This document shows, in pieces, positions 176 through 17,756 of a stretch of DNA of 43,668 bases. Source of the DNA: a virus; IMG/VR virus record IMGVR_UViG_3300009609_000016, positions 1 to 43,668 of that record, one strand, 5' to 3'. The notes below the pieces were generated by a model that saw only the letters and a program-made list of their open reading frames with translations, was not told the DNA's origin and did no database searches. Position 1 is the stretch's first letter; every line of letters begins with the position of its first letter. A program made the position numbers and the translations under genes.

Positions 176-502
176 CTATCGCCGACTGAGAACAGTAATC
201 AATCGAGACGATCGCCCGAGTATCTGTGACTGGCCATCGAACACCGCAGCCGTGACGGTCATCGATTCGCCAGCCGGTACGCGACGCCATTCGATCCAGT
301 GCGTCTTCCGCGCCTGCTCGCCGTCGAGTTGAATCTGGCTGGACTGCACCACGTCGCCGCGATCAATGTCTGGTTCCACTTGCACCATGATCCTGACGGC
401 CTGATCCTCCCAGACAATCGCGGGAGCGTGGACGATGGACACGCGCGGAGACGGGGCCATCAGGGCCACGATCAACAGGGCAGCGACAAGGCTGTAACGC
501 AT
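176..502 (-). CDS. Small predicted exported protein
   Basis: 108 aa. The N-terminus is a classic Sec signal: MRYS, then a hydrophobic stretch of about 12 residues, with likely cleavage after V-H-A near residue 26. The mature part is short, charged and beta-rich in appearance, with no motif I recognise. ATG start at 502, 7 bases after the stop of the upstream gene. It is the last gene of the leftward block. One of seven signal-peptide genes in this phage. Function unknown. Confidence 0.7.
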   Translation of the reverse strand: MRYSLVAALLIVALMAPSPRVSIVHAPAIVWEDQAVRIMVQVEPDIDRGDVVQSSQIQLDGEQARKTHWIEWRRVPAGESMTVTAAVFDGQSQILGRSSRLITVLSRR

Positions 503-509
503 CGGTCAT

Positions 510-878
510 TCAGTCGCCGTTGTTTTTGTACGCGTACGTCTCGACGTTCCGCCGCTGGTCTACTGTGCCGTGGTTCCACACGCGCCCAGGTGAGCCGTCG
601 CTGTCGGTGCCCCGGAAGAACGCGCCTGGATGCTTCGGGTGCATGAACTCGATCATGGCAAAGTTCGCCACGTCCATCAGGTACTCGGTGTTGCCAGTCT
701 CGGCGTATTTCTCCAGCCGCAGGCGTAGCGAGTCCAGCGCGTTGACCTTGTGCGGGTACGCATCGGCCACCCGCCCGTACTTGCAGAACGACACCGCCAT
801 CCGGTTGACCATGCCGTCGAGGAATTGCGCGCTGTACTCCGTCTCTGGGATGCCCGGTATCAGTTTCACTGTCACCAT
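510..878 (-). CDS. Conserved-looking helical phage protein
   Basis: 122 aa. The ATG at 878 is preferred over the GTG at 884 because GAGG lies 5 bases ahead of it. The middle is helical, with a charged RLRLEKY segment followed by TGNTEYLMDVANFAMIEF. That segment style is seen in phage proteins of unknown role; I recall it from the family only loosely. No catalytic motif is evident, and a nucleotide-metabolism role would be a guess. Confidence 0.7.
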   Translation of the reverse strand: MVTVKLIPGIPETEYSAQFLDGMVNRMAVSFCKYGRVADAYPHKVNALDSLRLRLEKYAETGNTEYLMDVANFAMIEFMHPKHPGAFFRGTDSDGSPGRVWNHGTVDQRRNVETYAYKNNGD

Positions 879-885
879 ATGCACC

Positions 886-1053
886 TCATTCCCTGTCGTC
901 GTCCTCGTCGCCGTCGTCCAAGTTCCACGTCTTGCCGCAGACGTTGCAGAAGTAGGCCTGCGGTTCGACTTCTTCGACCATGTGGCCGGATTCCGAGCAG
1001 CCAGGGCACATCACTTCCATGCCCTTGCGCTTCGGACCCTCACGCCGTGGCAT
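886..1053 (-). CDS. Zinc-ribbon microprotein
   Basis: About 55 aa from the ATG at 1053 (later in-frame ATGs at 1020 and 1011 are possible). It shows CPGC and, about 20 residues later, CNVC, a Cys4 zinc-ribbon arrangement. The C-terminal tail is strongly acidic (DDGDEDDD). The start overlaps the end of the preceding zinc-ribbon gene by 14 bases. The likely role is nucleic-acid or protein binding; nothing more specific can be said. Confidence 0.65.
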   Translation of the reverse strand: MPRREGPKRKGMEVMCPGCSESGHMVEEVEPQAYFCNVCGKTWNLDDGDEDDDRE

Positions 1054-1198
1054 TGGCCTTGTTCGTCTGCACACAGGGGCCGTGATGCGTGACCGTGGTC
1101 ACGTCGTTGATAGTGCTCACAATCAGCACGGGTTCACCGCACGTGGGGCAGACCACGCCAATCGAGGACCAATCGCCCACGTCGTCCTTAGTCGGCAT
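1040..1198 (-). CDS. Zinc-ribbon-like microprotein
   Basis: 52 aa from the ATG at 1198, which overlaps the end of the HExxH gene. It contains CPTC in the first third, and THHGPC in the last third could complete a metal site. It is one of two adjacent Cys-rich microgenes at the end of the late block. Function unknown. Confidence 0.6.
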   Translation of the reverse strand: MPTKDDVGDWSSIGVVCPTCGEPVLIVSTINDVTTVTHHGPCVQTNKANATA

Positions 1199-1505
1199 CG
1201 ACGTTGACCGGCCTTCTGCGCCGCTTGGTCCGCACGTACGCCCTCCACCATCGCGCCTTGGTGGGCTCATCCATCCGTAGCACCAGGGCACGCGCGGTCC
1301 GCGTAACGGTGCGCTCGCCGAGCCGAGGACGGGCCCGATGCAAAAGCTCGTGACAGAGCGTCTCCAGAATCGCCGGCCGCGGGTCGATGTAGATGTTCTG
1401 ACCATCCTGCAACCCGTCTACTTGGAACCGCTCGCTGTTGAGACTGCATTCCCACACCCTACCCCTGCGCATTTCGTCCATCAGGTCGTCCAGCGTGACC
1501 TTCAT
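1188..1505 (-). CDS. Putative zinc metallopeptidase-like protein (HExxH)
   Basis: 105 aa. The motif HELLH near residues 52-56 sits in a helix after ILETLC, as in zincin-fold proteins, where the two His bind zinc and Glu is catalytic. The N-terminal half has short beta segments (ECSLNSERFQVDGL). The C-terminus is rich in Arg and Lys. The start ATG at 1505 overlaps the upstream stop as ATGA. Small HExxH proteins occur in phages, but a protease role here is inferred from the motif alone. Confidence 0.65.
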   Translation of the reverse strand: MKVTLDDLMDEMRRGRVWECSLNSERFQVDGLQDGQNIYIDPRPAILETLCHELLHRARPRLGERTVTRTARALVLRMDEPTKARWWRAYVRTKRRRRPVNVDAD

Positions 1506-1768
1506 CGCCTCTTCTTTGCTGGCTTCTCTTCGACCAGCTTGTAGGCTGGCAATGTGACTGTGCGCCCGTCCGAGCCCTGCACGCGCTTGGTCGTGCGCGT
1601 CGCCCTCCCAGCCTTGACCAACAACTTCAGCCGTCTCGCCGCCGCTGACCGATCGATGTTCAACATTTCGCCGAACTCGCCAGTCGTGATTGAGTCCGGG
1701 TCATGGATGCACAGGTCGATGTTTGCCTCTTGTAGTGCGTGCAGCCATTCGTCGCGACTAATCCCCAT
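1502..1768 (-). CDS. Winged-helix DNA-binding protein
   Basis: 88 aa. Residues about 25-60 read as a helix-turn-helix (TTGEFGEMLNIDRSAAARRL) followed by LVKAGRATR and a beta wing, as in MarR-like or replication-terminator-like winged helices. The tail is basic (KPAKKRR). The ATG at 1768 directly follows the stop of the phosphoesterase gene. Probably a regulator; its target is unknown. Confidence 0.7.
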   Translation of the reverse strand: MGISRDEWLHALQEANIDLCIHDPDSITTGEFGEMLNIDRSAAARRLKLLVKAGRATRTTKRVQGSDGRTVTLPAYKLVEEKPAKKRR

Positions 1769-2638
1769 TCACTCCTCCGGTGAGCGGTCCATCGACTTGA
1801 CGAACGAGCGCACGTAGAACACGCCCTCGTCGTTGTAGCGAATCACCAGCCCGCCGAATTGCGGTTCGGTCAGTCTGGCGCCGGCAATCTTCCACGCGAA
1901 CGGCGTCTTGCCCTGCCAACACGGCGTGACAACGGCGGTTGCTCGGCCTCGCTTGGTGGGCAGCTCAATCGCGGAGTACCTATGCCGATGCGAGCGCACG
2001 ATGATGTCAGGCGGGACTCGGCCCCACTGCGCAGCCTCGTTGAACTCCGCAGCCAGTTCCGCGTTCACCGCCGATGTCTCACGCGCCGAACTCGACGTCG
2101 TGCCGATGTGATGCAGGAGATGCACGAGCGGACCCTGTTCACCGCCGACGCGCTTCCACAGGTCGTATCTGGCGTACTGACCTTGCTGGTTCGGCTTCGC
2201 GCCAAGCTCCTCGGCGAGTTCCTCTTCATACACGCCGGACTTGCCGACGTGTGCCTCGGTGCCCCGAATGTGGAAGTAGGTACCGCCCGTCTTCAGGCAG
2301 CGATCCACTTCTGGCTTGATGGCCGCCATCGCGATCTTCTTTTGGTCTTTGGTGTTGTGGCTGATTTGCGTAGTGGAGTTGTGATGCACGCCATCGATCG
2401 CGTCACCGTTGTGAACGAGGTCGTACGGTTCGCCGTTGGTGGCTTCTGGCATCCACACATCCCAGAACTCGCGCCAGAACGCCCAGACCTTCTGCTGAAA
2501 CTCTGACGGGACGTAGAAGCCGCCATCGTCCAGCCCGATGCCCATCGCTGGATACAACCCGAGCCGACACCCAGAGTGCGTGTCGCTGAAGACGACCAGG
2601 TTCCGAATGTGCGAGCGCGTGCCCGATTTGCGAGCCAT
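1769..2638 (-). CDS. Calcineurin-like metallophosphoesterase
   Basis: 289 aa from the ATG at 2638. It has the ordered metal-binding motifs of the family: SDTH (D-x-H) near residues 18-21, NGDAIDG (GD), RGTEAH in place of GNHE, and SHRHR (H-x-H) near residue 215. These ligands hold a di-metal centre that hydrolyses phosphomono- or diesters. It lies just after the lysis genes. Phage members may act on nucleotides, nucleic acids or host signalling phosphates; the substrate cannot be read from sequence. No strong ribosome binding site is seen. Confidence 0.85.
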   Translation of the reverse strand: MARKSGTRSHIRNLVVFSDTHSGCRLGLYPAMGIGLDDGGFYVPSEFQQKVWAFWREFWDVWMPEATNGEPYDLVHNGDAIDGVHHNSTTQISHNTKDQKKIAMAAIKPEVDRCLKTGGTYFHIRGTEAHVGKSGVYEEELAEELGAKPNQQGQYARYDLWKRVGGEQGPLVHLLHHIGTTSSSARETSAVNAELAAEFNEAAQWGRVPPDIIVRSHRHRYSAIELPTKRGRATAVVTPCWQGKTPFAWKIAGARLTEPQFGGLVIRYNDEGVFYVRSFVKSMDRSPEE

Positions 2639-2666
2639 CAGCGCGGTACGTTGAATCGCGTACCCA

Positions 2667-2852
2667 TTACGTTGGTTCGGTCTGCCCAACCGGTGTCGTC
2701 GTCATCTGCCGCATCGCAATCGCGATGGCGCCCTGCACCAGCGGAACGAACTTCACGTACTCCGGAGGAATGACATCGCCGATTCCTGGCATCATCAGAA
2801 TGGCCGCGACCATCGCGAGGCCGTTCACGACATGACTTCGATAGCCCTTCAT
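2667..2852 (-). CDS. Small membrane protein, holin candidate
   Basis: 61 aa. The ATG at 2852 is chosen because GGAGGA lies 9 bases ahead and it forms an ATGA overlap with the upstream stop. There are two hydrophobic segments (around GLAMVAAILMMPG and VPLVQGAIAIAM) separated by IPPEYVKF, with a basic N-terminus. The size, topology and position a few hundred bases from the lysozyme suit a class II-like holin. This is an inference. Confidence 0.6.
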   Translation of the reverse strand: MKGYRSHVVNGLAMVAAILMMPGIGDVIPPEYVKFVPLVQGAIAIAMRQMTTTPVGQTEPT

Positions 2853-2992
2853 TCGCGCCATTCCTCCATCGGATTGAAGTCGAGACACCGCCGACATTGC
2901 CGCACGCCCCGCCAGCCCACTGACGAGACATACGGCCGCCAGTCGTGCGTCCACCACCAGCACCACAGCGAGAGCAAGAGCCGCCACAGCAT
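2849..2992 (-). CDS. Tiny Trp-rich membrane-associated protein
   Basis: 47 aa from the ATG at 2992, joined to the upstream stop as TGATG. A hydrophobic Trp-rich segment (LLLSLWCWWW) is followed by a basic part with CRRC and an acidic end. Position in the lysis cluster suggests a membrane or lysis accessory role, but no family is recognised. Confidence 0.5.
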   Translation of the reverse strand: MLWRLLLSLWCWWWTHDWRPYVSSVGWRGVRQCRRCLDFNPMEEWRE

Positions 2993-3192
2993 CAGTCCGA
3001 CTCCGGTTGCGTCTGGCCGTACAGCGGATCCGGCGTGGGGCTCGGCGTCAACCACGTGGAGCGCCAGAGCACCGTCCAACCCTGTTTCTTCGCCGTCGTG
3101 ATCGCGTAGTCGTCCTCGATGATTTCCTTGAAGTCGTGTTGCCTGGTCACGGCGTTCCAGATGAACACGAGACACATCGGCACTTGGTCCAT
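2992..3192 (-). CDS. Small hypothetical protein in lysis cluster
   Basis: 66 aa from the ATG at 3192, which follows the lysozyme stop by one base. It reads as an alpha/beta mini-domain (CLVFIWNAV, KKQGWTVLWRSTW) with a Pro-rich tail. The junctions with both neighbours are tight, which supports it as a gene. No motif recognised. Confidence 0.6.
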   Translation of the reverse strand: MDQVPMCLVFIWNAVTRQHDFKEIIEDDYAITTAKKQGWTVLWRSTWLTPSPTPDPLYGQTQPESD

Positions 3193-3193
3193 G

Positions 3194-3628
3194 TCATTCC
3201 GGCTCAACTCCGGTACGAAGTGCCTCAACGACCCAGTCGCCACGACGCGGGCCAACGTCGGTGTACCACTTGGAATCTTCAAGCTCCGAGGCGGCCACTT
3301 CATGCAGGCCGGCAGCCATTGCAGCGATGGCCTTCTTGAACCCATAGAGTTTGCCGATGCCGACGTTGAAACACAGGTCGCACCACACCCGCTGACGCAC
3401 CGCATCCAGTTCCACAAACCACGGAAACGACGCCGTAAGCTGGCCCAGAACCATGTCAATGTCGTTCTTCAACAGGTAGAACGCTTCGGCCTGCGTGATG
3501 CCGCGGTCCTCCAGATTGCGACCACAACCGATGGTGAGCTTCCCCGCCGTGCAGGTGTAAACGCGCAGCTTGAAACCTTCGTGTCTGACCAGTTGCGTGA
3601 CCAGCCGCTCACGCGATTCGTCCGTCAC
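3194..3628 (-). CDS. Endolysin, T4-type lysozyme (GH24)
   Basis: 144 aa, GTG start overlapping the upstream stop as GTGA. It cleaves the beta-1,4 bond between MurNAc and GlcNAc in peptidoglycan. The GH24 triad spacing is exact: E17 (HEG), then 8 residues, C26 where T4 lysozyme has Asp20, then 5 residues, T32 (KLTIGCG). The E-C-T variant is known among phage endolysins. The C-terminal helical lobe is present (QRVWCDLCFNVGIG). No signal peptide or SAR anchor is visible, so a holin is expected. Confidence 0.93.
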   Translation of the reverse strand: MTDESRERLVTQLVRHEGFKLRVYTCTAGKLTIGCGRNLEDRGITQAEAFYLLKNDIDMVLGQLTASFPWFVELDAVRQRVWCDLCFNVGIGKLYGFKKAIAAMAAGLHEVAASELEDSKWYTDVGPRRGDWVVEALRTGVEPE

Positions 3629-3837
3629 GACGCCACACGCTCGATGACGCGATCCATCTTCGCGTTCAGCGTCTCGAGCGATTCACCGATGGCCTGGTGC
3701 CGCTCGTCTAGCCGCTTCTGACGTTCCTCGCAGGACTTCTCGTGGGTGTTGACCCGGCCCTCGAGCCGCAAGGCCCAGACCAAGCCGGCCACGGCTATCA
3801 TCGCGATGGTCACAATCGTGCCCGGATCTGGTGTCAT
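3625..3837 (-). CDS. Membrane-anchored coiled-coil protein in lysis cassette
   Basis: 70 aa. One N-terminal membrane segment (TIVTIAMIAVAGLVWAL) is followed by a charged heptad-like helix (RLDERHQAIGESLETLNAKMDRVIERV). The layout resembles phage holin-accessory or inner-membrane spanin-like proteins. It stops inside the lysozyme start (GTGA). The ATG at 3837 follows a TAG directly. No outer spanin lipoprotein was seen nearby, so the exact lysis role is open. Confidence 0.65.
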   Translation of the reverse strand: MTPDPGTIVTIAMIAVAGLVWALRLEGRVNTHEKSCEERQKRLDERHQAIGESLETLNAKMDRVIERVAS

Positions 3838-3984
3838 CTACGCCGCCTGTCTCTCGACCGTCTCCGTGATCGTGACTACGAAGCGATCCTTGTTGATGCC
3901 GCGATACCGATAGGCCGCGAGATACACGGCGATCAACCGCTGTTGCTCTCGTTCGATCGCCGCGATCTCGTCGGCGGTCTTCAC
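3838..3984 (-). CDS. 48-aa helical microprotein
   Basis: GTG at 3984 overlaps the upstream stop as GTGA. A longer in-frame extension exists but would run far into the upstream gene. The protein is mostly one charged helix (EIAAIEREQQRLIAVYLAAY) followed by a short beta-like segment. No family recognised. Confidence 0.55.
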   Translation of the reverse strand: MKTADEIAAIEREQQRLIAVYLAAYRYRGINKDRFVVTITETVERQAA

Positions 3985-4355
3985 CCGATCCGCACGTTCT
4001 GTGGCACCGCAGGCACCGCGATGATCAGCAGCGACAACGGCACACTGGGCGCACTCGACAGGACTTGCCCGTTCAGTGTCACCGTGGCCGTAATCGCCAA
4101 GCTGTGCCCGCCCGTCGTGAGCGCCGGCAATCGCGCGCCACACAGGAACGGACTCGCGGTCCCTGAGCACGTCACGCCAGGCAGGATGGTGGCCGCCGAT
4201 GCGCCGTCGATGGAGTGGTACGTGTAGCCCTGCACCGCGGCGAGGCTGGCCCCTGGCTGATCCCAGATGACGCGCTCAGTCCCGACGACTGGCGTCTGCG
4301 CAGAGGCGAGGACCGGAATCAGCACGAGCGCGAGGGTGAGTAGGGTTCGGGTCAC
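3981..4355 (-). CDS. Predicted exported protein, fibronectin- or Ig-like
   Basis: 124 aa. The GTG at 4355 is chosen: AGGAG lies about 7 bases ahead, it forms GTGA with the fibre gene stop, and it starts exactly at a Sec signal (TRTLLTLALVLIPVLASA, cleavage A-S-A before Gln). The mature part is beta-rich with two Cys about 9 residues apart and ends in a PAVPQNVRIG linker typical of the start of a fibronectin-type domain. Probably a surface or adhesin-like component; function inferred only. Confidence 0.65.
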   Translation of the reverse strand: MTRTLLTLALVLIPVLASAQTPVVGTERVIWDQPGASLAAVQGYTYHSIDGASAATILPGVTCSGTASPFLCGARLPALTTGGHSLAITATVTLNGQVLSSAPSVPLSLLIIAVPAVPQNVRIG

Positions 4356-5962
4356 TGGACGTTCTCCTTGGGGGAATACTGCAACCACGCAAATCTGAGC
4401 ACGCGGATGCGCTTGTCGTTGAGCGGCACGGACTCTTCGGCCGCGGCGCCTGCGAGCCCGATCTCTTCGGTCTGCCCTGATGTGATGTACGCGCCGGGCG
4501 GAATGTTGTCGGTGGTGCTACTGTCACCGTCCAGATCGAGGATGTCTACACCGAGCGGAGTCGCACGGACGGAACTTTCACCGGCACACGAGGCATCCGG
4601 TGTCATCGCGGCAGTGCAGAGACGGAAGTCGCCCGCTGCCGCATTCGCGAGTCGCGGGTCGGTATCGACGCACAACGGAGTCACGGTGCATTGGTTCGCG
4701 TATGCCGCCTTGAAGGCGGTCAGGTCCATCTCGTCGCCATCGGTGCCTTCGTAGAACTCGGTGGTCGTGTTGTAGTAGACGTTGTGCTCGAAATCGAGCG
4801 CCGTCGAGGCGGGCATGCTCGTCGTATCTGAATAGACCATTCGCGCAGCGGTATGAAAGATGTTGTTGTAGACCAAACACCCGTCATACGAGCCCAAGTT
4901 CAACGCTGCCGCCATGTTGTAGAACGTGTTGTTGACGATGCGACAGTTCAAGGCCCCGGGCTGGGCTCGTGATTCAATGCCGATAAGGCCCGGGCTGTCG
5001 CAGGTGTTTTGGTAGATGTAGACGTCTTCCTCGAAGTCCGGATCATCAATCGACCACACGAAGCAGTTGATCGTCGTGTCGGTGACTTTATTGAACCGGA
5101 ACGTGCCGGACGCAATGCCGACCCCGTTGTTCTTGACGATCCATCCCGACGCGGACCCGCTGCACTCGTTGTGCTCGACCAGAAAATTGGACGAGTGATA
5201 GACCGTGAAGCAGGTCCCATTCAGCGAGCCTATGAGATTCTGAAAGTCTGAGACCGAGTTGTTCCGCGCGACGCAGTTGGTGCAGAAGTTGAAGCGGATG
5301 GCCTCCCAGTTGTCGGTCCACACCGTCTGGATGCTAGAGATGATGACGCCCTCGACCCACACGCCCGTGGCGCTGCCCAGCAAGATGGGGCCGGTGTCCG
5401 GGATCGCCGCCCACTGGCTCCCGTCCGTGCATTCGTCAGTCGCGCCGTTGGTCGGGTCTTCGCCGCACGCCACAATCGTCCAGCTGTGGCCGGCGTTGCG
5501 ATCGGCATACCACTTGACGTAATCGCTCTCGAACGCCCCGATGGATGGCGAGTTTGCCGTGTCACTCGTGAGTGTGCATGTCCCGACACAGATGATGGTG
5601 ATGAGGTTGTCGCTGGCTGTGCCTTCCGCGACAGGGGAATACACGCCCTCATAGCGGCAGACGAGCCCAGAGCCCGTGCAGGTGCCGGCGAAGTCATATG
5701 TCCCGCCGAAGACGTAGACCGTATCCCCCGCCGCTGCGGCCTTGGTCGTGTCGCCATCGGCATCGGTGAAGCGATTCGCGTTGCCCCATGTCGCGATGAT
5801 CAGGTTTTCATAACACGTCGAGCCCGCCTCGTTTCCAGCGATGTAGTTGAGTGAGCCCTTCGCTGTGGTGTCGTCGCCGCCGCTGCCATCACCGACACAG
5901 AGCGTTGCCGCATGTGCAGACGAGGCCCAGAGCAACACGCACAGGACGAGCGCGTGCCTCAA
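4352..5962 (-). CDS. Right-handed beta-helix protein with signal peptide (putative tail fibre/spike)
   Basis: 536 aa, TTG start overlapping the upstream stop as TTGA. The first 18 residues are a Sec signal ending S-A-H-A. The middle (about 210-400) has the short N-rich turns of a parallel beta-helix (NNSV, EHNECSG, YIYQNTCDS, RIVNNTFYN, LVYNNIFH), as in pectate-lyase-like phage spikes. It is Cys-rich, which would suit disulfides after export. Position in the tail block points to a receptor-binding or glycan-degrading fibre, but a cleavable signal is not expected for a cytoplasmically assembled tail. No catalytic site is assigned. Confidence 0.75.
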   Translation of the reverse strand: MRHALVLCVLLWASSAHAATLCVGDGSGGDDTTAKGSLNYIAGNEAGSTCYENLIIATWGNANRFTDADGDTTKAAAAGDTVYVFGGTYDFAGTCTGSGLVCRYEGVYSPVAEGTASDNLITIICVGTCTLTSDTANSPSIGAFESDYVKWYADRNAGHSWTIVACGEDPTNGATDECTDGSQWAAIPDTGPILLGSATGVWVEGVIISSIQTVWTDNWEAIRFNFCTNCVARNNSVSDFQNLIGSLNGTCFTVYHSSNFLVEHNECSGSASGWIVKNNGVGIASGTFRFNKVTDTTINCFVWSIDDPDFEEDVYIYQNTCDSPGLIGIESRAQPGALNCRIVNNTFYNMAAALNLGSYDGCLVYNNIFHTAARMVYSDTTSMPASTALDFEHNVYYNTTTEFYEGTDGDEMDLTAFKAAYANQCTVTPLCVDTDPRLANAAAGDFRLCTAAMTPDASCAGESSVRATPLGVDILDLDGDSSTTDNIPPGAYITSGQTEEIGLAGAAAEESVPLNDKRIRVLRFAWLQYSPKENVQ

Positions 5963-6717
5963 AAGATGCCCCCGCCGATGATCGATCGGTGACTCGGCTC
6001 TGTCGCCGCTGCACCCGCTTGCCGGATCGCAAAATGCGAGAGCGCGCGATCATCCGAGGCCGCTTGCGTGAACCCCACGCTGCGCGACCCTTGACCAGCC
6101 GTCGTCTCGTACACCACTTTGGCGGCTTCCAGCCCGCCGTACGTATGGTCCGGCCCTGCCGTCGAGTTCGCCCCGGTCGCCATGCTCGACGCATTACCGT
6201 ACCCGGTGTAGCCGCCAGCGAATCGGACACTATTCGTCCCTGGCGATCCGTCGTCTACCGACTGCTCCGCCAGCACGTCGTCACCCTCAAGGAGCACGAT
6301 CCCGGTCGTATAGATTTCCGTGTCGCCGCCTGCGGTGACGGTGCACACGATGCCGTACAGGACATCGGTGTCATTGGTCCGCGTCACCGTCAATGTCTGC
6401 ATCCCGCTCGGTACACTCGACCCGAGAAACCAGATTTGCACCTGTCCTGGCTCGCCTGCTGCGTCGTGGGCGTCTGCCGACGTGTTCTCAACCAGCGCCG
6501 AGCCGCCATAGTCCACCGACGTGACCTTGTCGGCATCGGCGTGGAAGTTGACCACAAAGAGCACGATGCCGCGAGGCGTGCCGGCGGGCGTATGCGAGAT
6601 GGTGAACGTGTCTGAACTGGCCGATTCGGACGATTCCGTGCAGGCGTCGAAGGCGACTTGAGCCGCGACAGGCTGCGCCCACAGCAGCAGACAGACGAGA
6701 AACAGATAGCGCGTCAT
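5959..6717 (-). CDS. Predicted exported beta-sandwich-like structural protein
   Basis: 252 aa. The ATG at 6717 has GAGG just upstream and lies 5 bases after the previous stop. It starts with a Sec signal (MTRYLFLVCLLLWAQPVAA, cleavage V-A-A before Gln). The mature protein is Ser/Thr/Gly-rich with alternating beta strands, similar in feel to lectin-like or carbohydrate-binding sandwiches (FTISHTPAGTPRGIVLFVV, QIWFLGSSVPSGMQTLTV). It sits between two other signal-peptide genes. Likely a fibre-associated or surface protein; family not identified. Confidence 0.65.
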   Translation of the reverse strand: MTRYLFLVCLLLWAQPVAAQVAFDACTESSESASSDTFTISHTPAGTPRGIVLFVVNFHADADKVTSVDYGGSALVENTSADAHDAAGEPGQVQIWFLGSSVPSGMQTLTVTRTNDTDVLYGIVCTVTAGGDTEIYTTGIVLLEGDDVLAEQSVDDGSPGTNSVRFAGGYTGYGNASSMATGANSTAGPDHTYGGLEAAKVVYETTAGQGSRSVGFTQAASDDRALSHFAIRQAGAAATEPSHRSIIGGGIF

Positions 6718-6722
6718 GGACC

Positions 6723-7802
6723 TCACCGATAGCACCAGCTCGCCGTCACGGTTGCGCCATCCACGGCCGTCGTGCTGTTGATCGCGATGCCCTCGTTGAT
6801 CCGGATCGTGATGCCGTTGGCAAACGACATCCCACCAGGGAAGCTATGCACGCTCCCGGCGCCGTTGGTCGCCGTCGAGTTCAGCGGGATCGGGAAGGTG
6901 TATTTCGGCGTGTCGTTCTCGTCCACATCGGCGGCGTCGTCGTCGTAGATGCGGACGTAGGCCACGGCCGTGTTGATCCCGAAGACCGAAAAGGAGTCGA
7001 GATAGCCCGCCGAACTCTTGATCTCCACTTCGTCGGTGCCGTCCGACACGTAGTTCACAGGGGTGCAGGCCCCGCCATACACCACGGCGGCATTCGTCAC
7101 CGGGTCAATGAGGATGGTATGCAGCCCGGTAAACGAGCCTTCGGTTGCGGCTGTGATGACGGTCGGCGTACCGCCCACGTCTCCCTGTACGTCGATGTTG
7201 CCGATGTTCGCCGTGCCAGCGGCAATCGAAGCGACATCCACGTTGCCGATGTTGTTATCGCCCGCCGCAATCGAGGCCACATCGACGTCGCCGATGTTGT
7301 TGTTCCCGGCCGCGATGGTCAGGACATCCACCGCGTTGGCATCACCGGTCTGGCTAATTGAGACCGTGCCAGCCGAACCGCCGCCACCGCCGCCTCCACC
7401 AGTCGAGAGCGCCAGCACCTTCACCGTGGTGTCGGTCGCCGAGAACCCCGAGTTCGCGTTGATTTTGATGTGCGTGCATCCCGCGACATTGACTGTCCAG
7501 ATGCCCACGAGATCCGTCACCGAATAGGCAACATCGGTCTGCCCGTCCAGTGTCAGCGCCAACTCGTCATCGGTGTCGTAGGTCGTGCCTCCATCGACGG
7601 AGCACTGCACTTCCCACACGCCCGAGTAGGTGTCCAGCGTTTGAATACGGGCCGCCGCCATGCCGCCGACGTTGACCACGATTGAGGTCGTCGTCGCGGT
7701 GAGGGTGCCAGAGCCGGCTTGTGTCGCCAGTCGAGTAATCGGCTGCGCCCACGCCGGAGCGGCCATCAGCAGCAAGGCCAGGACGAGAATGTGAACGCGC
7801 AT
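6723..7802 (-). CDS. Predicted exported repeat-bearing structural protein
   Basis: 359 aa. The ATG at 7802 is chosen over upstream ATG/TTG codons: AAGGAG lies 8 bases ahead and a Sec signal begins there (MRVHILVLALLLMAAPAWA). Near residues 160-210 are three 15-residue repeats of the form AAGxxNIGxVDVASI. The flanks are beta-rich. Similar NIGNVD repeats occur in phage head- or tail-fibre-like proteins. Two Cys near the end and several before could form disulfides. Function inferred as fibre or surface decoration. Confidence 0.68.
   Translation of the reverse strand: MRVHILVLALLLMAAPAWAQPITRLATQAGSGTLTATTTSIVVNVGGMAAARIQTLDTYSGVWEVQCSVDGGTTYDTDDELALTLDGQTDVAYSVTDLVGIWTVNVAGCTHIKINANSGFSATDTTVKVLALSTGGGGGGGGSAGTVSISQTGDANAVDVLTIAAGNNNIGDVDVASIAAGDNNIGNVDVASIAAGTANIGNIDVQGDVGGTPTVITAATEGSFTGLHTILIDPVTNAAVVYGGACTPVNYVSDGTDEVEIKSSAGYLDSFSVFGINTAVAYVRIYDDDAADVDENDTPKYTFPIPLNSTATNGAGSVHSFPGGMSFANGITIRINEGIAINSTTAVDGATVTASWCYR
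7191..7325 (-). repeat. Three 45-base coding repeats
   Basis: Three imperfect in-frame 45-base units encode AAG-x-x-NIG-x-VDVASI-like 15-mers in the exported protein above. Variation is mostly at the first residues of each unit. They are short tandem coding repeats, typical of fibre shafts, and not a CRISPR array. Confidence 0.8.
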
Positions 7803-7825
7803 CAACTGAACTCCTTGTGTGGTCA

Positions 7826-8464
7826 TCAAAATCCGCCCATGCTGTGCAACTGCCGCAAAATCTCGTCTCGCTCCTGAGGACTCAGCGCCGGATCGTCCAA
7901 CTTGGCCGCGTGTGCTTGCCCACCCGTGTACGAATCCATCAGGCCAGACGCCACCATCAGCGGCAGCGATGCCGCGCCCGCGATGCGACTGAGAAATCCA
8001 GCACCGCGCATCAGTGGACCGCCGGGCTGACGCGCGCCAACGGGTAACAGTTCTCCACCGAATCGCACCATCCGCTGCACGGCTGGATTCGTGGACCGCT
8101 GCGCCATCGCGGCCACTTTGGGTACCTGTGACGCCGCCGCCGCCGTGGCCGCAGACGTCGCCGCGCCCTTCACGTCACCCCTGAGCACGTCACCGGCCGC
8201 GTCGAGCGCAATCACGCCAGGCGTCAGTCGTCCGACCTTGGACTTCGCCGCGCCCTCGACCGCCTTCGCCGCCCTGTTCACGCCGTGAACAACAGATGGC
8301 GTTGTCTTCGCCGCACCGATTCCGGCTGCCGCGATTGGCGTCAGGAACGTGCCGCCATCGTCTGCGGGCTTCGGCTCAGCAGCCAACGCCGCGCTGATGT
8401 CGGCCTCTGTGAAGTCATCCGGGAACTCGTGGACGACGCCGTTGAACTCGACGCGCTGTGGCAT
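7826..8464 (-). CDS. Putative internal virion / DNA ejection protein
   Basis: 212 aa, start joined to the upstream stop as TAATG. It begins with a small beta/helix motif (VEFNGVVHEFPDDFTEADISAAL) seen at the start of podovirus internal proteins, then Ala/Gly-rich helices (AAGIGAAK, GAATSAATAAAASQV) with membrane-active character. It is the first of four consecutive genes of this type. The role as an ejection protein is inferred from composition and position between the hub and fibre genes. Confidence 0.55.
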   Translation of the reverse strand: MPQRVEFNGVVHEFPDDFTEADISAALAAEPKPADDGGTFLTPIAAAGIGAAKTTPSVVHGVNRAAKAVEGAAKSKVGRLTPGVIALDAAGDVLRGDVKGAATSAATAAAASQVPKVAAMAQRSTNPAVQRMVRFGGELLPVGARQPGGPLMRGAGFLSRIAGAASLPLMVASGLMDSYTGGQAHAAKLDDPALSPQERDEILRQLHSMGGF

Positions 8465-9600
8465 TACGGCAGCCTCACCGGACGGCCCTGCGCATCACGG
8501 CCCCACTTCTGTACAGTCCCAGAATCTGGCGCAGCAGCCGCTTGGCCCGCCCCTGCGTCGTCGCCATACAGTTGCTTGGCGAGCCGATAGATGCGCTCCA
8601 GTTCCTGGGCCGCTCGCGTGTCCGAGATGTTCGGGCTGTTGAGTTCTGATGCCGCGTTCTGGAGCAACGTCAACTCAGGCCCAGACAGCGCACCGAACCC
8701 CGTCGCGCCCGTGGCCGACTGGTTCTTCATCTCGTTGAGCAGATCGACAATCGCCCTGCCTCTCAGGCGATCCAGCGCCCCCTTGGCCGTGGCCGTCTTG
8801 GACCCAGGAATCAGTTGCGCGAGCGGATTGCGCACACCGAACAGATTCGCCGTCTCAGGCCTCAGCGTCGCCTTCCCTTGCGCATCGAAGTCCGCGAGTT
8901 CCTTGAGCACATCCACCGTCGCGCCCGATGTCACCCGCGCCGCGTCTCGCGAACGCTTGTCGGCCTTGGCCTTGTCGTCGGACTTCTGCTTGGCCGCGTC
9001 TACCTGTGTCTGCAAGAGGTCATTTCGCAGCGCCGTCGTTTCCGCTTTCCCAGACTGCGCCGCGCCGGCAATCGCCGCGCGCAACTCGTTGCTCTCACGC
9101 GCACGCTCGGCCGCTGCCTGTCGATTGAGTTCGGCCTGCTCTGCCCGCGCCTGTTCCGCCGCCCGCGCACTGAGGTACTGAGAGCCGCCGCGCATCCGCA
9201 ACTCGGGAATCACCTCGTACTGCGGCACGCCGGATTCGTCATCGCCGAGGAACTGGCCCTGTTTCGGTGTCTCTCGGACCTGACCGCCGAACCCGTGCTC
9301 GCGCAGGAGTGCGGCCGTTGACGTATCCACGGCATCATCCGGTAGTGCGGCGCTCGCAATCGTGGTGGCACGCCGGAACCCGCGCTCGTGCGCCAAGTCC
9401 TCCTGCTGGCTCTTGCGAATGGCTTCACTGGATGCCAGTTGCCGCTCTTGCAGCCGCTGCCCAGTCTCGCCACGTGCCGCCGCCTGCCGTGCGAGCTCCA
9501 TCTGCTCCTCGGCCTGCTTCTGCGCAAATCGACGCAGCAAGATCGCCTGAAGCGTGTCGCCCGCTTCGCCCGCCGCCCCGCCCCAGCCGAACCCTGCCAC
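8464..9600 (-). CDS. Putative internal virion protein, helical
   Basis: 378 aa, GTG start directly after a TAG. Long charged coiled-coil region at about 25-75 and 165-240 (Gln/Glu/Arg/Ala-rich, such as QAEEQMELARQAAARGE), and a Gly-rich first segment. No enzyme motif. Composition and context fit a podovirus ejection protein that leaves the capsid with the DNA. Inference only. Confidence 0.55.
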   Translation of the reverse strand: MAGFGWGGAAGEAGDTLQAILLRRFAQKQAEEQMELARQAAARGETGQRLQERQLASSEAIRKSQQEDLAHERGFRRATTIASAALPDDAVDTSTAALLREHGFGGQVRETPKQGQFLGDDESGVPQYEVIPELRMRGGSQYLSARAAEQARAEQAELNRQAAAERARESNELRAAIAGAAQSGKAETTALRNDLLQTQVDAAKQKSDDKAKADKRSRDAARVTSGATVDVLKELADFDAQGKATLRPETANLFGVRNPLAQLIPGSKTATAKGALDRLRGRAIVDLLNEMKNQSATGATGFGALSGPELTLLQNAASELNSPNISDTRAAQELERIYRLAKQLYGDDAGAGQAAAAPDSGTVQKWGRDAQGRPVRLP

Positions 9601-10239
9601 CTACCACCGCCTCGCGGGATCGCTCGGGTCCAACTGATTGGATCCGGAATACACGTCACCGGGCGCGTCATACAGACCGCTGTTGATGTTCCATGACCCA
9701 GGCGCACGAGACGACGACACGCCGTTGCCGCCGCCACCGCCCAAGAACGGCAGCAGCTTCCCAAGCACGCCGAGCACTGACGATCCGAGCCCCAATCCGC
9801 CGAGCGTCTTCTCGAGCCCGCCCGCTTCGGCGAACTCGCGATTCGGTGGGGCCTGATAGCGCGGGGCCTGCGGCTCCTCTGCCGCCAGCAATGCCAGCAG
9901 CGCCTCACGATTGCCCCCCGTGAGGTTCGACGGCCGCGCGCCTCCGGTCACAGTCGGCATCCGAGCCGCGATGTTCGGATTCCCAGGCGTGATCTGCTGG
10001 TCCGTGGTGTTGTTCAGCAGTTGCGACAGCACCGCGGCCTTGCGCTTGCGGTCCTCGGCTTCGCGGGCGAATCGCGCGGATTCGGTCCCGGCCGAGAATC
10101 GATCGCGTGCGCCCTGTTGACGCAGCGCCTGATTCCGCAGGTTGATCTCGTCTTGGGAGAGCCGCGAGTTTTCAGAGCCTCTCGACGCGCTGCCGAAGAC
10201 CGACCCCAGATCGCCGAAGATGCCCGTCCAGTTCGCCAT
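9601..10239 (-). CDS. Putative internal virion protein
   Basis: 212 aa. The ATG at 10239 has GAGGG about 8 bases upstream. Helical, charged N-terminal half (RFAREAEDRKRKAAVLSQLL) and a Gly-rich hydrophobic segment near 150-170 (LGLGSSVLGVLGKLLPFLGGGGG) that could insert in membranes. It ends Pro/Asp-rich. Fits the same group of ejection-type proteins. Confidence 0.55.
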   Translation of the reverse strand: MANWTGIFGDLGSVFGSASRGSENSRLSQDEINLRNQALRQQGARDRFSAGTESARFAREAEDRKRKAAVLSQLLNNTTDQQITPGNPNIAARMPTVTGGARPSNLTGGNREALLALLAAEEPQAPRYQAPPNREFAEAGGLEKTLGGLGLGSSVLGVLGKLLPFLGGGGGNGVSSSRAPGSWNINSGLYDAPGDVYSGSNQLDPSDPARRW

Positions 10240-10249
10240 CGTCAGTCCC

Positions 10250-11014
10250 TCAAATCGCGTTGAGCAGTGCCGCCAGAGCCGCCAGATTGCCTTGCTGGTT
10301 CAGCGCCGAGTACGAAAACGCTTGCGAGTCGTTGAAATGGCTGTCCTGCATCGCCATCAGTTCGCGCTGAATCTCGCGTGCCGATTCCGCGTCCCCGCTC
10401 GCCAGCGCCATCCCGAGCAGGCTCTGCAACGCCTGACGCCGCTGATTCAGTTCCGCGCCGAGCACCTCACCCACGCCTTGCGCTTCGGACTCGCCGCGCG
10501 CCTGCTCGATGCCCAGCCGATTTGTTTCCGCCGCGCCGGAGTCCGCCAACCCACCACTCGCGAGCACTTCCGCGCTCGAGCCACGCTGCCGCTCTGCGCT
10601 GCGCTGCAACGCCAAGCGCCGGCCGGCAAGGTTCTCGCGGATGCCTGGGTCGTCAACGGTCGGGGCTTTGCCGAGCGCCCCGAGTTGCTCCCGCAGGATG
10701 TTCCGCATGTCCTGCGTCCATTGGTTGACCGGACGTGGCTGACCGAAGCTGCTGGAGTACGGCGAATTGCCACCGAGGGACTGACCATCCTGGCCGGTGC
10801 CGGTCATGCCTTGGAGATTGGCCGGCATCGTCCCGCCGCTTCCGCTTGGCGACGCAATGCTTGCTGACCCGCCCCCGCTTGAGGTGAACATCCCGCCGCC
10901 AGCGCTCTGCATCTGGCCGGTGGCCGGATCGATGTCGTCGTCCTCGAGCGAGCGCGTGTTCTTGCGCCAATCGAACTCGTCGCCGTCGTCGTCAAAAGTC
11001 CAGTCGATGGGCAT
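10250..11014 (-). CDS. Putative internal virion protein, low-complexity N-terminus
   Basis: 254 aa, ATG at 11014 following a TAA directly. The N-terminal 90 residues are acidic, then Ser/Gly-rich and probably disordered. The C-terminal 160 residues are helical with many Gln/Arg/Glu (EIQRELMAMQDSHFNDSQAF). It resembles podovirus proteins encoded between tail hub and ejection genes. No motif. Confidence 0.55.
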   Translation of the reverse strand: MPIDWTFDDDGDEFDWRKNTRSLEDDDIDPATGQMQSAGGGMFTSSGGGSASIASPSGSGGTMPANLQGMTGTGQDGQSLGGNSPYSSSFGQPRPVNQWTQDMRNILREQLGALGKAPTVDDPGIRENLAGRRLALQRSAERQRGSSAEVLASGGLADSGAAETNRLGIEQARGESEAQGVGEVLGAELNQRRQALQSLLGMALASGDAESAREIQRELMAMQDSHFNDSQAFSYSALNQQGNLAALAALLNAI

Positions 11015-11605
11015 TTACAGCAGCTCCAGTTCGATTTCGTTCGCGTCCGTCCGATCCGTGCTCCCGATGTTCAACGCCGCGCCAGAGTCTTGATACGCCT
11101 CGATGTGCACCGCGTCGCCTGGTGACACCGGGATGCTAAACGTCGTCGTCAGGCGCGTGGGACCACCAGCAGTGGCCGCACGCACGAACGCCGGACGCCG
11201 CACAATCGAGTCGTTCACTTTCACGCGGACCCCGCGATCCCCGTCCGCATCCGTCGCAAAGATGAGCCGCACGCGCCCGCGAAGCCATCGCGAGGGGCCA
11301 CTCAGTTCGCCGGGAATCAGGAACCGATCCGTCCGCACGGTCTTGCTGTGCCCGCTCGTTGGCCACGACACGATCCCGCTCACGCCGCGCAAGTCGTCTT
11401 CGCTGTTGAATGACACCGCCTCGAAATTGCCGGAGGTCGTGTGGCTCTGCGTGGTCGAATGAAACGCCATCAGCACACGATGCGCGGTGCGGTCGTCGTC
11501 GGTGTGGCCGACCTGCATCTGCTTCGACAGTTGCGACGTCAGCGAATTGAAGACGTCCTGCATCCGCTGATCGAGATCGGTGAGGTGCGGGAGGGCAATC
11601 TTCAC
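11015..11605 (-). CDS. Putative virion protein with jelly-roll-like C-terminus
   Basis: 196 aa, GTG start as GTGA with the upstream gene. The N-terminus is a short helix (DLDQRMQDVFNSLTSQLSKQM) like a trimerising stalk. The rest is beta-rich and ends with FSIPVSPGDAVHIEAYQDSG, which has the look of TNF/C1q-like or carbohydrate-binding jelly rolls in phage fibres. It may be a tail-tip or appendage protein. No signal peptide. Confidence 0.55.
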   Translation of the reverse strand: MKIALPHLTDLDQRMQDVFNSLTSQLSKQMQVGHTDDDRTAHRVLMAFHSTTQSHTTSGNFEAVSFNSEDDLRGVSGIVSWPTSGHSKTVRTDRFLIPGELSGPSRWLRGRVRLIFATDADGDRGVRVKVNDSIVRRPAFVRAATAGGPTRLTTTFSIPVSPGDAVHIEAYQDSGAALNIGSTDRTDANEIELELL

Positions 11606-13587
11606 GGATACACCACCGGCCCAGGCTCAATCAGCACCCGCAGTTCATCGATTTCCCACGTCTGCGTGCTCGCTGCGCTGTCCCCGATCCGGAGCCGCAA
11701 CGCACTCGCGAAGTCATCCGTGAGCGCATCCTCGTACACCCGACGTCGGCGTGTCTCAGACCCATCCGCCGTCATCGTCACATCGAAGGTCTGCGCGGAC
11801 TGCGCGCCGTAATCCTGCGTGACCGTCAAGCGCAACGTCTGCGATCCCACCGTGCCCATGACCGAGGCGCCGCGCATCCGCACCGTGCGGTCGTGGCCGG
11901 CGAAGTGGCGATCCGGCAAATCCACGTACGCTTGGAATGTCACGCTATCGTCGGAAGTGACTGGCGATGTTTCCCAGTACGGCGTGAGGTACAGCAGCTT
12001 CGCCGCGCCGCCACTGGTGCGATGCGCAACATACGGCCGGAGGTCGATGTTGGTAGACCCGCCCGACACGCCGCTCGGATACAACACGCACGCCGTGCCT
12101 ACCGCGAAGTCGCCCTGATACACCGACCAGCCATCGCGGACATATCCCGGCCGCTCCACTCGTCCAAGGAACGCATGGAAGACCAGCGCGTGATACGTGG
12201 CGGAACCAGATCCGCGCATGACCCACCAGATTGCCTGCCGGGTGGCTTGGCAGTACAGCCCGAAACACAGGGCCGGCCGACCGACCGCGATCTGGTCGTT
12301 CCCGGCAGCCGCCGAGTACATGTCCTTCAGGTCTTCACCGAGAAACTGCACGCCAGACGACCCGTATCGATACGGCCCGAACAACGACATCCAATAGAGC
12401 GCCGGGGCGCCAGACTCATCCGCGCCGACGAAAATGCACTCCTGAAACAGCGGCCCATTGAACGTGTCTTTGGTGATCCACGACACGCGGAACGGCGCGG
12501 TGTTCACTTGTGTCGGGACCAGCCGACAGAAGGCGTCATTGCGGAACGCGAAGATGTGCCCCTGGAACGGTTGCGTCAGCCCAATCAGCGACGAGTTGTC
12601 ATCGTCCAGGTCCAGCCAGTTCTTCTGCTCGACGGTGTTCGGGACAAATTCCTCATCGAAGAAGTTGTCATCCGTCGTCCCACGCACCGGAGAGAAATAG
12701 ATGCGACCCGCCGTCGTGCCGCCAATCAGCCGGTTCTCGTCGGTCGTCAGATAACTCACCGCCGTCCAGTTGGTGTACCGTCCCGCCAACGGCGCCGCGT
12801 CATTCGTGCTGTAGGTCGTCGTCGCTGCGCTATCGGCATAGGTGGTCGTGGCGACGACGATCCACGCCGAGAGCACGTACCAGACCGCGTTGTCCAGCGA
12901 CACCTCCACGCGCCAATGGGTGGCGTGCTCGACGGTCGAGGGCTTCGTCACAGTCGCGTTGGTGTCCGCGCCGCTCGGGGTGAACGATGTTGACGCGGAT
13001 GCCTCCCCCATGAGCCGCGTGACGCTGCCGGACTGATAGCCCATGCGGGCGCGGTAGTACCGCAGGGTCGCCGTATACGCCCCGGCCCCGCCGCCGTCCG
13101 CGACGGTCGGCGCAGACGGCGTGCCCATGCCCGCACGGCGCAACGTCGTGCCGTCCCAGACATGCAGGCGGTTCGTTGAGGCGTTCGGGTACGCCACAAT
13201 CAGATTGCCGCTCCGCATCTGCGCGAAGCGCACAGTCGCCGTGGTGGGTGAGTCAATCGCATCCGCCACCGTGATCTCGACCCACTGCGTAGCGGCTGGC
13301 GCGAGGTACGCCAACTGCCCCGTCGAATCCACCGCGTAGAGCGTCCCGCCCGACCCGCGATAGAGCGATCGAATCGTTCCAGAGAACGGACCACCGGCAC
13401 TGAACGTCAGGCCGAGCGCCGTCGAGCCCGGCCGCTTCTTCGCGAATCCCACGCGATCGAGGTCCACGTTCAGGCACTCTTTCGCCTTCGTCCACGGGAT
13501 CCCGCCAAAGTCAGGTGACACACCCGTCGCGGGCGTGCTGCCGTCCCGACCGCGAATCGACGTGAAGACGTGACCCTGTTTCGACAT
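11602..13587 (-). CDS. Large tail/neck structural protein, beta-propeller-like
   Basis: 661 aa from the ATG at 13587 (1-base TGATG overlap with the upstream gene). Repeating beta-blade-like segments with aromatic turns (LIGGTTAGRIYFS, GHIFAFRNDAFCRL, LYWMSLFGPYRYG) recall podovirus DNA-stabilisation or tail-hub proteins of the P22 gp10 kind. The N-terminus SPDFGGIPWTKAKECLNVDLD is typical of such hubs. It is the largest tail-region gene and no tape-measure protein is present, which supports a short tail. Assignment by pattern only. Confidence 0.65.
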   Translation of the reverse strand: MSKQGHVFTSIRGRDGSTPATGVSPDFGGIPWTKAKECLNVDLDRVGFAKKRPGSTALGLTFSAGGPFSGTIRSLYRGSGGTLYAVDSTGQLAYLAPAATQWVEITVADAIDSPTTATVRFAQMRSGNLIVAYPNASTNRLHVWDGTTLRRAGMGTPSAPTVADGGGAGAYTATLRYYRARMGYQSGSVTRLMGEASASTSFTPSGADTNATVTKPSTVEHATHWRVEVSLDNAVWYVLSAWIVVATTTYADSAATTTYSTNDAAPLAGRYTNWTAVSYLTTDENRLIGGTTAGRIYFSPVRGTTDDNFFDEEFVPNTVEQKNWLDLDDDNSSLIGLTQPFQGHIFAFRNDAFCRLVPTQVNTAPFRVSWITKDTFNGPLFQECIFVGADESGAPALYWMSLFGPYRYGSSGVQFLGEDLKDMYSAAAGNDQIAVGRPALCFGLYCQATRQAIWWVMRGSGSATYHALVFHAFLGRVERPGYVRDGWSVYQGDFAVGTACVLYPSGVSGGSTNIDLRPYVAHRTSGGAAKLLYLTPYWETSPVTSDDSVTFQAYVDLPDRHFAGHDRTVRMRGASVMGTVGSQTLRLTVTQDYGAQSAQTFDVTMTADGSETRRRRVYEDALTDDFASALRLRIGDSAASTQTWEIDELRVLIEPGPVVYP

Positions 13588-14177
13588 CAGGGCGCGCTCT
13601 CCGCAACCGCGTTGAACGCCGTGGCCGCCGCCTGTGCCGCCTGCACCAGCGCCGCGAAACTCGTGGACCCAGTCGTGCCAGCCGATGACATGCCCAACGC
13701 GCGCCCGAGGCACGCCTCTGCAAAACTGAAATAGCTATAGAGCAGCAGCATCCCCCTGTTGACCATCTGCGCGTTCGGCGCATTGCTGCGCCCAGCGAGC
13801 CGTTCGCCAGGCAAGAGCACCAGCGCCGCCGCATCGGCTGGTGAGACGTGCATTGGTGGCGTGCCAGACCCGATGCCACCGGCGATCCGGTGATAGTTCG
13901 GAAAGGGATTCGGCGGCTTGTTCGTCAGGTGCTCGATGAAATACTCCATCGTCCGGCCGTCATCCGTGGCCAGCGCGATCGTCCGCATCTTCCAGATCTG
14001 ACCCGCAGGCACCGGCTCACCGAAGACATGCGCCGAGTTCGCGTTGGGCGGATACGTGCCTGGATTGGCCGCGTCGTTGCTCCAGAGCGTTTGGCCCCAG
14101 CCGTAGACCGGCACGCACTCCTGCGCCCCTGCCGGCGCCGGCAGACAGACCGCGATGAGCAACAGCAGTCGGCGCAT
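13587..14177 (-). CDS. Predicted exported protein in tail region
   Basis: 196 aa. The ATG at 14177 forms TAATG with the upstream stop and starts a textbook Sec signal (MRRLLLLIAVCLPAPAGA before Gln). Mature part: Gly/Pro/Asn-rich with Cys, then an Ala-rich helical C-terminus. It lies between the adaptor-like and hub genes, where a cytoplasmic virion protein would be expected. Function unknown. Confidence 0.65.
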   Translation of the reverse strand: MRRLLLLIAVCLPAPAGAQECVPVYGWGQTLWSNDAANPGTYPPNANSAHVFGEPVPAGQIWKMRTIALATDDGRTMEYFIEHLTNKPPNPFPNYHRIAGGIGSGTPPMHVSPADAAALVLLPGERLAGRSNAPNAQMVNRGMLLLYSYFSFAEACLGRALGMSSAGTTGSTSFAALVQAAQAAATAFNAVAESAP

Positions 14178-15142
14178 TAGGTACCAGCCGGAAACCAAGC
14201 GCCCAAAGCCGAGTACTCATGCAGCCGTGGCGTCCATGTCGGCCGCCAGTCGGGATGCCCCACAAGGAACGTCTGAAGCGCCGCGTCGCCTTCCTTTACC
14301 TGTGACTGCAACATCTGCCAGCGGTTCGGGTCGTCGGACTTCCGCAGCTCGCGCAGTTCCGCCATGTCGACCACGAGATCCTCAAAGTCCACCGGCAGGA
14401 GGAATTCATCGGTGTCGTTCGCCATCTCGGGAATCGACCGCAGGACATCGGCGGTGTACGTCACGACCGCTGCCGGCGTGTTGTAGAGCTGAAACGTGGT
14501 GAACTTGGGCGCCACGTCACCAATGGCGATCCTCGACAGTTCCGTGCCACCCGTCGCGTCTTCGTGCAAGGTGACGATGCCGACCGCCGCCGCCGAGAGA
14601 TAGAACTTCGTGATGTGGATGAAATTGGTAATCGTGGACGAGAGCGTGATCGCCGTCGTGCCAGTCATCGAGACGGACGCTGTGCGGTAGTACCCACCCG
14701 TGATGAACCCTTCGATGTACGCGGTGTTCGTATCGCTCGCGCTGGTCGAATCGACAAAGATTTCCGAGGCGTCCGATGGCTGCGTATGCACCGACGACAG
14801 GCCGCGCGGAATCCACGCCCACGGGGTGCCAGTCGTGGGATCTGGTGCCATCGCATCCAGCCAGTCGGGTGTCTGGTACACCATCCGCCGATCGTTGGTC
14901 GTCTCCGTGATGCGGTTGATGCGCGCAATCCCCTGCTCCGGCAAGGCGTACAGCTTCTGGCTCGCGACACTGGCGAACGTGATCACGCCGTAGCGCAGCG
15001 ACTCGCGGCCAGGCTTGCGCAGAATCGCCCGGTGCGCCTCGTTCAGCGTTTCCTTGTAGCGCGTGGCGGTGGCGGTGTTCAGCGTGGAGTCTTTCGCCCC
15101 ACGCCTCCGAGCCAGCCGCTGCTGCGCGTTCAGGAATGTCAC
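14177..15142 (-). CDS. Putative head-tail adaptor or tail structural protein
   Basis: 321 aa, GTG start as GTGA. N-terminal helices (TRYKETLNEAHRAILRKPG), then a beta-rich insert (about 65-230), then a helical C-terminus with FEDLVVDMAELRELRK. This helix-beta-helix plan and its location downstream of capsid genes are typical of podovirus adaptor-like proteins. No family is firmly recognised. Confidence 0.5.
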   Translation of the reverse strand: MTFLNAQQRLARRRGAKDSTLNTATATRYKETLNEAHRAILRKPGRESLRYGVITFASVASQKLYALPEQGIARINRITETTNDRRMVYQTPDWLDAMAPDPTTGTPWAWIPRGLSSVHTQPSDASEIFVDSTSASDTNTAYIEGFITGGYYRTASVSMTGTTAITLSSTITNFIHITKFYLSAAAVGIVTLHEDATGGTELSRIAIGDVAPKFTTFQLYNTPAAVVTYTADVLRSIPEMANDTDEFLLPVDFEDLVVDMAELRELRKSDDPNRWQMLQSQVKEGDAALQTFLVGHPDWRPTWTPRLHEYSALGAWFPAGT

Positions 15143-17176: not shown

Positions 17177-17756
17177 GCAGTGACGCGATCTGCGGCTTGT
17201 TGAGGGTGTACGGGTAGTTCAACCACACGCTGAATCCGATCTGCACCGTGGATGTCCCCGACGCAGATACGAACGACGTGGCATACAGGCTCGAGGTCGC
17301 CCCCGAGTCGGCCGCATTCACGGCATACGCGCCGAAGATGACCACCGATGCCTCGTCCGAGTCGTTGAAGCCAGCGAACGCCGCGAGGTCGCATACGGCA
17401 ACCGCCGCACCCAGCACTTTGCTGGACGCCACGTTCGACGTGCCGGCCGCCCCGGCATACAACCCGTAAATCTGGGCGTACGCCTTGGTGTCCGACGCGC
17501 TGACCGCCGCCGTGATCACGCCCACGCGAGCCGTCGCCGCGTTGGCGTCGATGAACCGCGTGGCCAGATTCGCCTCGTCGATGTACACCGGCTCACCCGC
17601 CACGAACGCCGACTGACAATCGACGACGACGAACACCTTGTCGCCGATTGCTGTCGTCCAGAGTGATCCGAGTGCCGGATCCGCTACGGACGTGCCCACC
17701 GTCTCAGACGTCGGGAACGGAGCCGCATAACCGCCAAGACCGCGAAGATTTGCCAT
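17166..17756 (-). CDS. Putative head decoration/head-fibre protein
   Basis: 196 aa. The ATG at 17756 has a good ribosome binding site (AAAGGAG). Ala/Ser/Gly-rich beta protein with DPALGSLWTTAIGDKVFVVVD and GEPVYIDEANLATRF, the compact beta style of phage head-decoration proteins. It directly follows the major capsid gene with a 17-base gap. Assigned from position and composition. Confidence 0.55.
   Translation of the reverse strand: MANLRGLGGYAAPFPTSETVGTSVADPALGSLWTTAIGDKVFVVVDCQSAFVAGEPVYIDEANLATRFIDANAATARVGVITAAVSASDTKAYAQIYGLYAGAAGTSNVASSKVLGAAVAVCDLAAFAGFNDSDEASVVIFGAYAVNAADSGATSSLYATSFVSASGTSTVQIGFSVWLNYPYTLNKPQIASLHDT

Follow-up and report, generated by a model that had tools for sequence, protein, structure and literature searches.

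T4 spackle, P1 Sim, Lom and Bor of lambda and T5 Llp are phage-encoded proteins targeted beyond the cytoplasmic membrane. These are small single proteins, whereas the genome analysed here carries a cassette of predicted fibre-like and beta-helix-like proteins. The closest precedent is XepA of PBSX, a late protein encoded in the lysis cassette that is exported, is absent from particles and consists of beta-sandwich domains joined by a linker; YomS of SPbeta is a relative of its C-terminal domain (PMC6834076). In PMC1266369, XepA is counted among the secreted proteins that lack a classical signal. Our locus shares with these proteins a position in the lysis region and, in a low-confidence model, beta-sandwiches joined by a linker, one of which resembles YomS. 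Late export and absence from particles are described for XepA. However, XepA is a single gene, listed without a classical signal peptide, whereas the locus described here comprises several genes with predicted Sec tags. In the open-access literature that we searched, we found no prior description of such a phage-encoded exported set, though an earlier one may exist.

The window (the whole stretch of DNA analysed) is an entire IMG/VR record of 43,668 bases with nearly every gene on the minus strand. Two identical copies of a 123-base direct terminal repeat lie at 1-123 and 43546-43668, and the window is therefore probably a complete phage genome. The late genes on the minus strand run, 5' to 3', from terminase through portal, scaffold-like protein, capsid, adaptor, nozzle, probable internal virion proteins, the cassette and a small membrane-anchored protein to endolysin, and adjacent genes overlap stop to start, as in a late operon. 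We named terminase and endolysin from PHROG matches and the capsid from matches to annotated capsid proteins; the portal, scaffold, nozzle and internal protein names come from gene order, size and relatives. The adaptor-like tail protein (14177-15142, minus strand; weak PHROG tail match, E = 0.004, with its place beside the nozzle gene conserved in relatives) and the nozzle-like protein (11602-13587, minus strand; named from order and size, homologues in 34 IMG/VR loci) bear no signal. Another signal-less gene (11015-11605, minus strand) matches a family of virion structural proteins, PHROG 13989 (E = 3.3e-5), and is a candidate ordinary tail fibre. The lysis region starts with a short membrane-anchored coiled-coil protein (3625-3837, minus strand) that has weak PHROG matches and a homologue adjoining the endolysin gene in relative G005; the window's endolysin lies at 3194-3628 on the minus strand (PHROG 7, E = 1.6e-14). 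Downstream of the lysis genes, a phosphoesterase-like gene recognised by eye (1769-2638, minus strand) is 60% identical in G011, a genome without this capsid family. Two DNA methyltransferase-like genes (30765-31682 and 33705-34448, minus strand) display the motifs SLFAGIGGFDLGLERAG and DPPY.

The first-pass annotation had assigned signal peptides to seven genes of the window, and all seven open reading frames are present on the minus strand. We measured their N-termini with our own score of the n-, h- and c-regions, calibrated on 88 Escherichia coli K-12 proteins. None of the 11 exported proteins fell below 13.6, and the cytoplasmic maximum was 8.4. Four membrane proteins (MalG, NhaA, PdeC and PspG) fell in the positive range, but in each of them the cut was predicted to lie past residue 32. 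With the cut-off set at 15, 7 of the window's 72 real genes passed, one of them by a doubtful upstream start (2992-3459), versus 0 of 235 shadow open reading frames. We also shuffled the first 30 residues of each N-terminus 2,000 times. The observed score was reached in 0 to 2 shuffles for each of five genes, in 17 for 26385-26741 and in 138 for 176-502. Because no shadow frame matches their scores and shuffles almost never do, composition does not explain the five strong signals.

Each of these five (3981-4355, 4352-5962, 5959-6717, 6723-7802 and 13587-14177) has a basic n-region, a charge-free hydrophobic core and an A-x-A cleavage site. We conclude that they carry predicted Sec signals of textbook form for signal peptidase I. 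The first-pass annotation had noted Gln after most of its cleavage sites; in four of these five genes the residue after the predicted cut is indeed Gln, which also follows the cut placed by eye in 26385-26741. No lipobox with Cys at the cut, as in bacterial lipoproteins of the Llp/Ltp type, was flagged in the window's genes. Four of the five strong genes are adjacent, a run with a chance of 0.007 among approximately 26 late genes. The sixth gene (26385-26741, 118 amino acids, beside the terminase gene; score 16.0) probably encodes a Sec signal or an N-terminal anchor. The seventh (176-502, 108 amino acids; score 14.4) is a doubtful case of either; a somewhat similar small signal-bearing frame was seen by eye in L080. 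Good ribosome sites lie directly upstream of the signal at starts 7802, 4355 and 26741.

The cassette begins with a predicted exported, modular fibre-like protein of 359 amino acids (6723-7802, minus strand; score 20.0, signal at 7746-7802, AAGGAG just upstream of the ATG). Its modules are a signal peptide, a beta-sandwich, a Gly-rich linker, NIGDVDV repeats and a C-terminal beta-sandwich. The N-terminal part is 47% identical to a signal-bearing protein of G002 (31379-32662), and the C-terminal domain recurs in a signal-bearing 840-amino-acid protein of G005. An AlphaFold model with a mean pLDDT of only 49 contains two beta-sandwich domains, and its best single-domain Foldseek match is YomS (TM 0.65, 3.3 Å over 108 columns). 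A profile of the C-terminal domain drew no match among PDB sequences at E values up to 1, and thus no sequence homology to XepA or YomS. When a profile of the fibre family was run against the PDB, the matches were mainly antibodies and were rejected as an artefact of the Gly-rich linker.

The second cassette gene (5959-6717, minus strand; score 18.1, signal at 6661-6717) encodes a predicted exported beta-protein of about 250 amino acids. It has short matches to L053 9225-9965 (E = 0.001) and G019 16573-17277 (40%), and its positional equivalents are just 19 to 23% identical overall. In many second cassette genes the C-terminal end is a short, hydrophobic tail of LLGVxP type (window 5959-6717, L053 9225-9965, L056 18097-18876, L088 7762-8553 and L089 7811-9067). 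These ends were matched with a regular expression chosen after looking and are only noted here; the tail, also present in one partner gene without a signal, is possibly a docking tag.

The third gene (4352-5962, minus strand; score 19.5, signal at 5909-5962) encodes a predicted exported, beta-helix-like protein of 536 amino acids with 19 Cys. Its model (mean pLDDT 43, low confidence) matches mostly right-handed beta-helix proteins at the head of the list, among them alginate epimerases and RbmB, a biofilm lyase. The first-pass annotation had called this protein a beta-helix fibre. The beta-helix part of that name agrees with the model, but nothing shows that the protein is a fibre; by its modules, the fibre-like member is 6723-7802. 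Next comes a small predicted exported protein of 124 amino acids (3981-4355, minus strand; score 17.4, signal at 4299-4355, AAGGAG upstream of its GTG), 35% identical over 110 amino acids to the signal-bearing L070 20992-21825. The fifth strong gene (13587-14177, minus strand; 196 amino acids, score 19.7, signal at 14124-14177) is predicted to be exported too and stands apart, between the adaptor and nozzle genes. L057 and L070 also have signal-bearing genes immediately ahead of their nozzle gene. None of the window's signal-bearing proteins had a PHROG or Pfam match above cut-off.

We searched related phage genomes for the same signals, using capsid, portal and alignment queries to find relatives (a single-sequence nozzle query gave none). 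Homologues of the beta-helix protein were present in L051/L053, L052, G005 (L005/L031) and L094 at 27 to 43% identity, and with the window included, five of five family members carry a strong signal. Besides the window, four or more IMG/VR phages encode the fibre, the second beta-protein and the beta-helix protein, each signal-bearing. In L053/G011 the cassette has four members (454, 246, 516 and 107 amino acids), all tagged, and the three-gene set is also found in G019, G005 and L052. In L053 and L094 the beta-helix gene is preceded, in the window's order, by a gene for a fibre-like product and one for a product of about 240 amino acids, both with signals. G005 keeps the window's order, and L052 has a shuffled one; the second gene of L052 has a non-standard start, after which its signal can be read in frame. 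One small signal-less gene separates the first two cassette genes in G005 and L094. Hence, the signals recognised in the window do recur in relatives as a tagged cassette.

The content of the cassette varies even among relatives with similar capsids. At the cassette place, G002 (capsid 80% identical to the window's) has three consecutive signal-bearing genes: the homologue of the N-terminal part of 6723-7802, one gene without clear homology and one of 1,128 amino acids from a GTG near 33440. At that place G001 (capsid 84% identical) carries just one signal-bearing gene, a different one. Cassette content thus turns over fast while the export signals stay. Many other relatives found via the nozzle have no signal-bearing genes in the parts of their genomes that we examined, and the trait is therefore optional. 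We did not find the cassette in the cultured distant relatives Bradyrhizobium ppBjS10J-1 and Stenotrophomonas BUCT555, or in ct52p938.

Several other exported-looking proteins were seen in the wider group. Myxococcus Mx9 has one signal-like frame near its tail genes, and G001 4777-5163, between the terminase and portal genes, has a Tat-like N-terminus (MNRRSFVQRL). In three distant relatives a lipoprotein-like protein (G006 30867-31796, G007 11691-12553 and G009 12430-13356) lies beside a second exported-looking one, between the portal and scaffold genes. A further distant relative, G008, encodes a signal-bearing 262-amino-acid protein (L038 8593-9381, minus strand) with a PEP-CTERM end (Pfam PF07589, 27.9 bits, cut-off 20.7), which suggests that its host has an exosortase system. 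The group thus includes at least one phage that encodes a protein seemingly built for sorting to the host surface. The capsid's only genome match, an 18-kb contig in an Anaerolineae metagenome-assembled genome, is too weak a basis for assigning a host.

The cassette is not tied to the window's own virion proteins. G011 and G019, both complete carriers with end repeats, have it and lack the window's capsid family. The portal and head-closure proteins of G011 match PHROGs 156 and 578, which we take to be P22-like, and its lysis-side genes are 60 to 71% identical to the window's. In GenBank MW202554 (ctLwi270) a similar trio follows the portal gene, in the order fibre, second protein and beta-helix type and with a predicted signal in each by our score, as in the window. 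The annotations read glycoprotein repeat, concanavalin A-like lectin and endopolygalacturonase, and the feature table notes no signals. The annotated polygalacturonase start of MW202554.1 24079-25638 lies 39 bases inside the frame and drops a probable signal peptide (MRLLAIVTTLLVVMPALVEA). From these gene neighbourhoods, with different heads and several late-operon slots, we conclude that the cassette travels between virion types and is not bound to one tail type. The genes had first been placed in a surface or tail block; their late-operon position stands, but no single tail type goes with them.

Cysteine content also separates the exported proteins from their signal-less kin. The strong signal-bearing proteins have 29 Cys per 1,374 mature residues versus 19 per 4,478 in other late proteins, an enrichment owed mostly to the 19 Cys of 4352-5962. 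The repeats of 6723-7802 (NIGDVDV) and some of its other modules recur in proteins of the metagenomic podoviruses MW202601 and MW202647, 24 to 75% identical in shared stretches but without a signal; in MW202601 the gene lies between the capsid and adaptor-like genes. These repeat fibres have one Cys each versus 4 to 13 in exported versions, or 2 in 1,194 amino acids versus 43 in 3,219 (Fisher p = 1.5e-4, an optimistic value that is uncorrected for relatedness). The contrast is consistent with a fibre family having moved into an oxidising compartment, and the signal-less homologues among structural genes suggest a virion origin of the modules. Even Cys numbers were dropped as evidence of disulfides: cytoplasmic virion proteins show the same.

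We favour, at a probability of roughly 0.55, a late Sec-exported cassette that acts on the envelope, surface glycans or debris. The genes from 7802 to 3981, together with 14177-13587, would be expressed late, alongside the virion proteins and shortly before lysis. Their products, with fibre-, lectin- and beta-helix-like modules, would leave through the Sec machinery of the host, lose their signals to signal peptidase I and gather outside the cytoplasmic membrane, where oxidising conditions would permit disulfides. There, or after release, they would most likely bind host envelope glycans, receptors or debris, and progeny would be freed or spared re-adsorption. The XepA precedent and the YomS match of the 6723-7802 model together favour an exported, mainly non-virion role, as does the mobility of the cassette.

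Perhaps the products are instead exported virion parts? Tail or capsid fibres would then be routed through Sec, fold in the periplasm, acquire their disulfides there and dock only when lysis mixes the compartments, the virion being finished outside the cytoplasm. We regard this as possible but distinctly less probable. The mosaic modules shared with signal-less repeat fibres among structural genes, the higher Cys content of the exported versions and, between the window and G002, an N-terminal domain that is conserved beside a C-terminal part that changes all speak for it. However, the cassette occurs with unrelated head proteins and in different late-operon slots, the signal-less fibre candidate at 11015-11605 is still present, and no separate docking domain is seen in the beta-helix protein, in which the conserved region begins right at the mature start. 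Less likely again are exported matrix enzymes that clear capsule or biofilm for release: the beta-helix protein would be a hydrolase or polysaccharide lyase, and the other products would bind its substrate. The epimerase and RbmB matches and the lectin and polygalacturonase annotations in MW202554 point that way, but model confidence is low, all matches of 4352-5962 to Pfam, NCBIfam and PDB sequences stayed below cut-off, and we recognised no catalytic set.

Among known exported phage proteins, a role in lysogenic conversion or superinfection exclusion is frequent, for example in the Ltp lipoprotein (as cited in PMC11437467), and two HTH genes at 42274 and 41915 look by eye like a repressor/Cro pair. 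That the cassette serves a temperate phage in this way is nevertheless improbable: its genes lie within the late operon, joined by stop/start overlaps and beside the endolysin gene, and we recognised no integrase gene among those of the window. Chance hydrophobic segments would suit 176-502, whose score is matched by 7% of shuffles. For the five strong genes this explanation is refuted by the shadow-frame and shuffle controls and by the signals of their homologues, unless a better predictor disagrees, and we consider it very improbable overall.

Late proteins of tailed phages are usually treated as cytoplasmic. The window's proteins had at first been described as an undescribed phage-encoded secretome; the signals are real and conserved and the set was new to the papers searched, but XepA is the nearest precedent. 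A conserved, mobile cassette whose members are all export-tagged suggests that a stage of infection outside the membrane has been missed by annotation, as at the MW202554 start. Should the proteins attach to virions after lysis, part of assembly would take place outside the cytoplasm; remaining on cells or debris would instead make them a late set of adhesins or shields.
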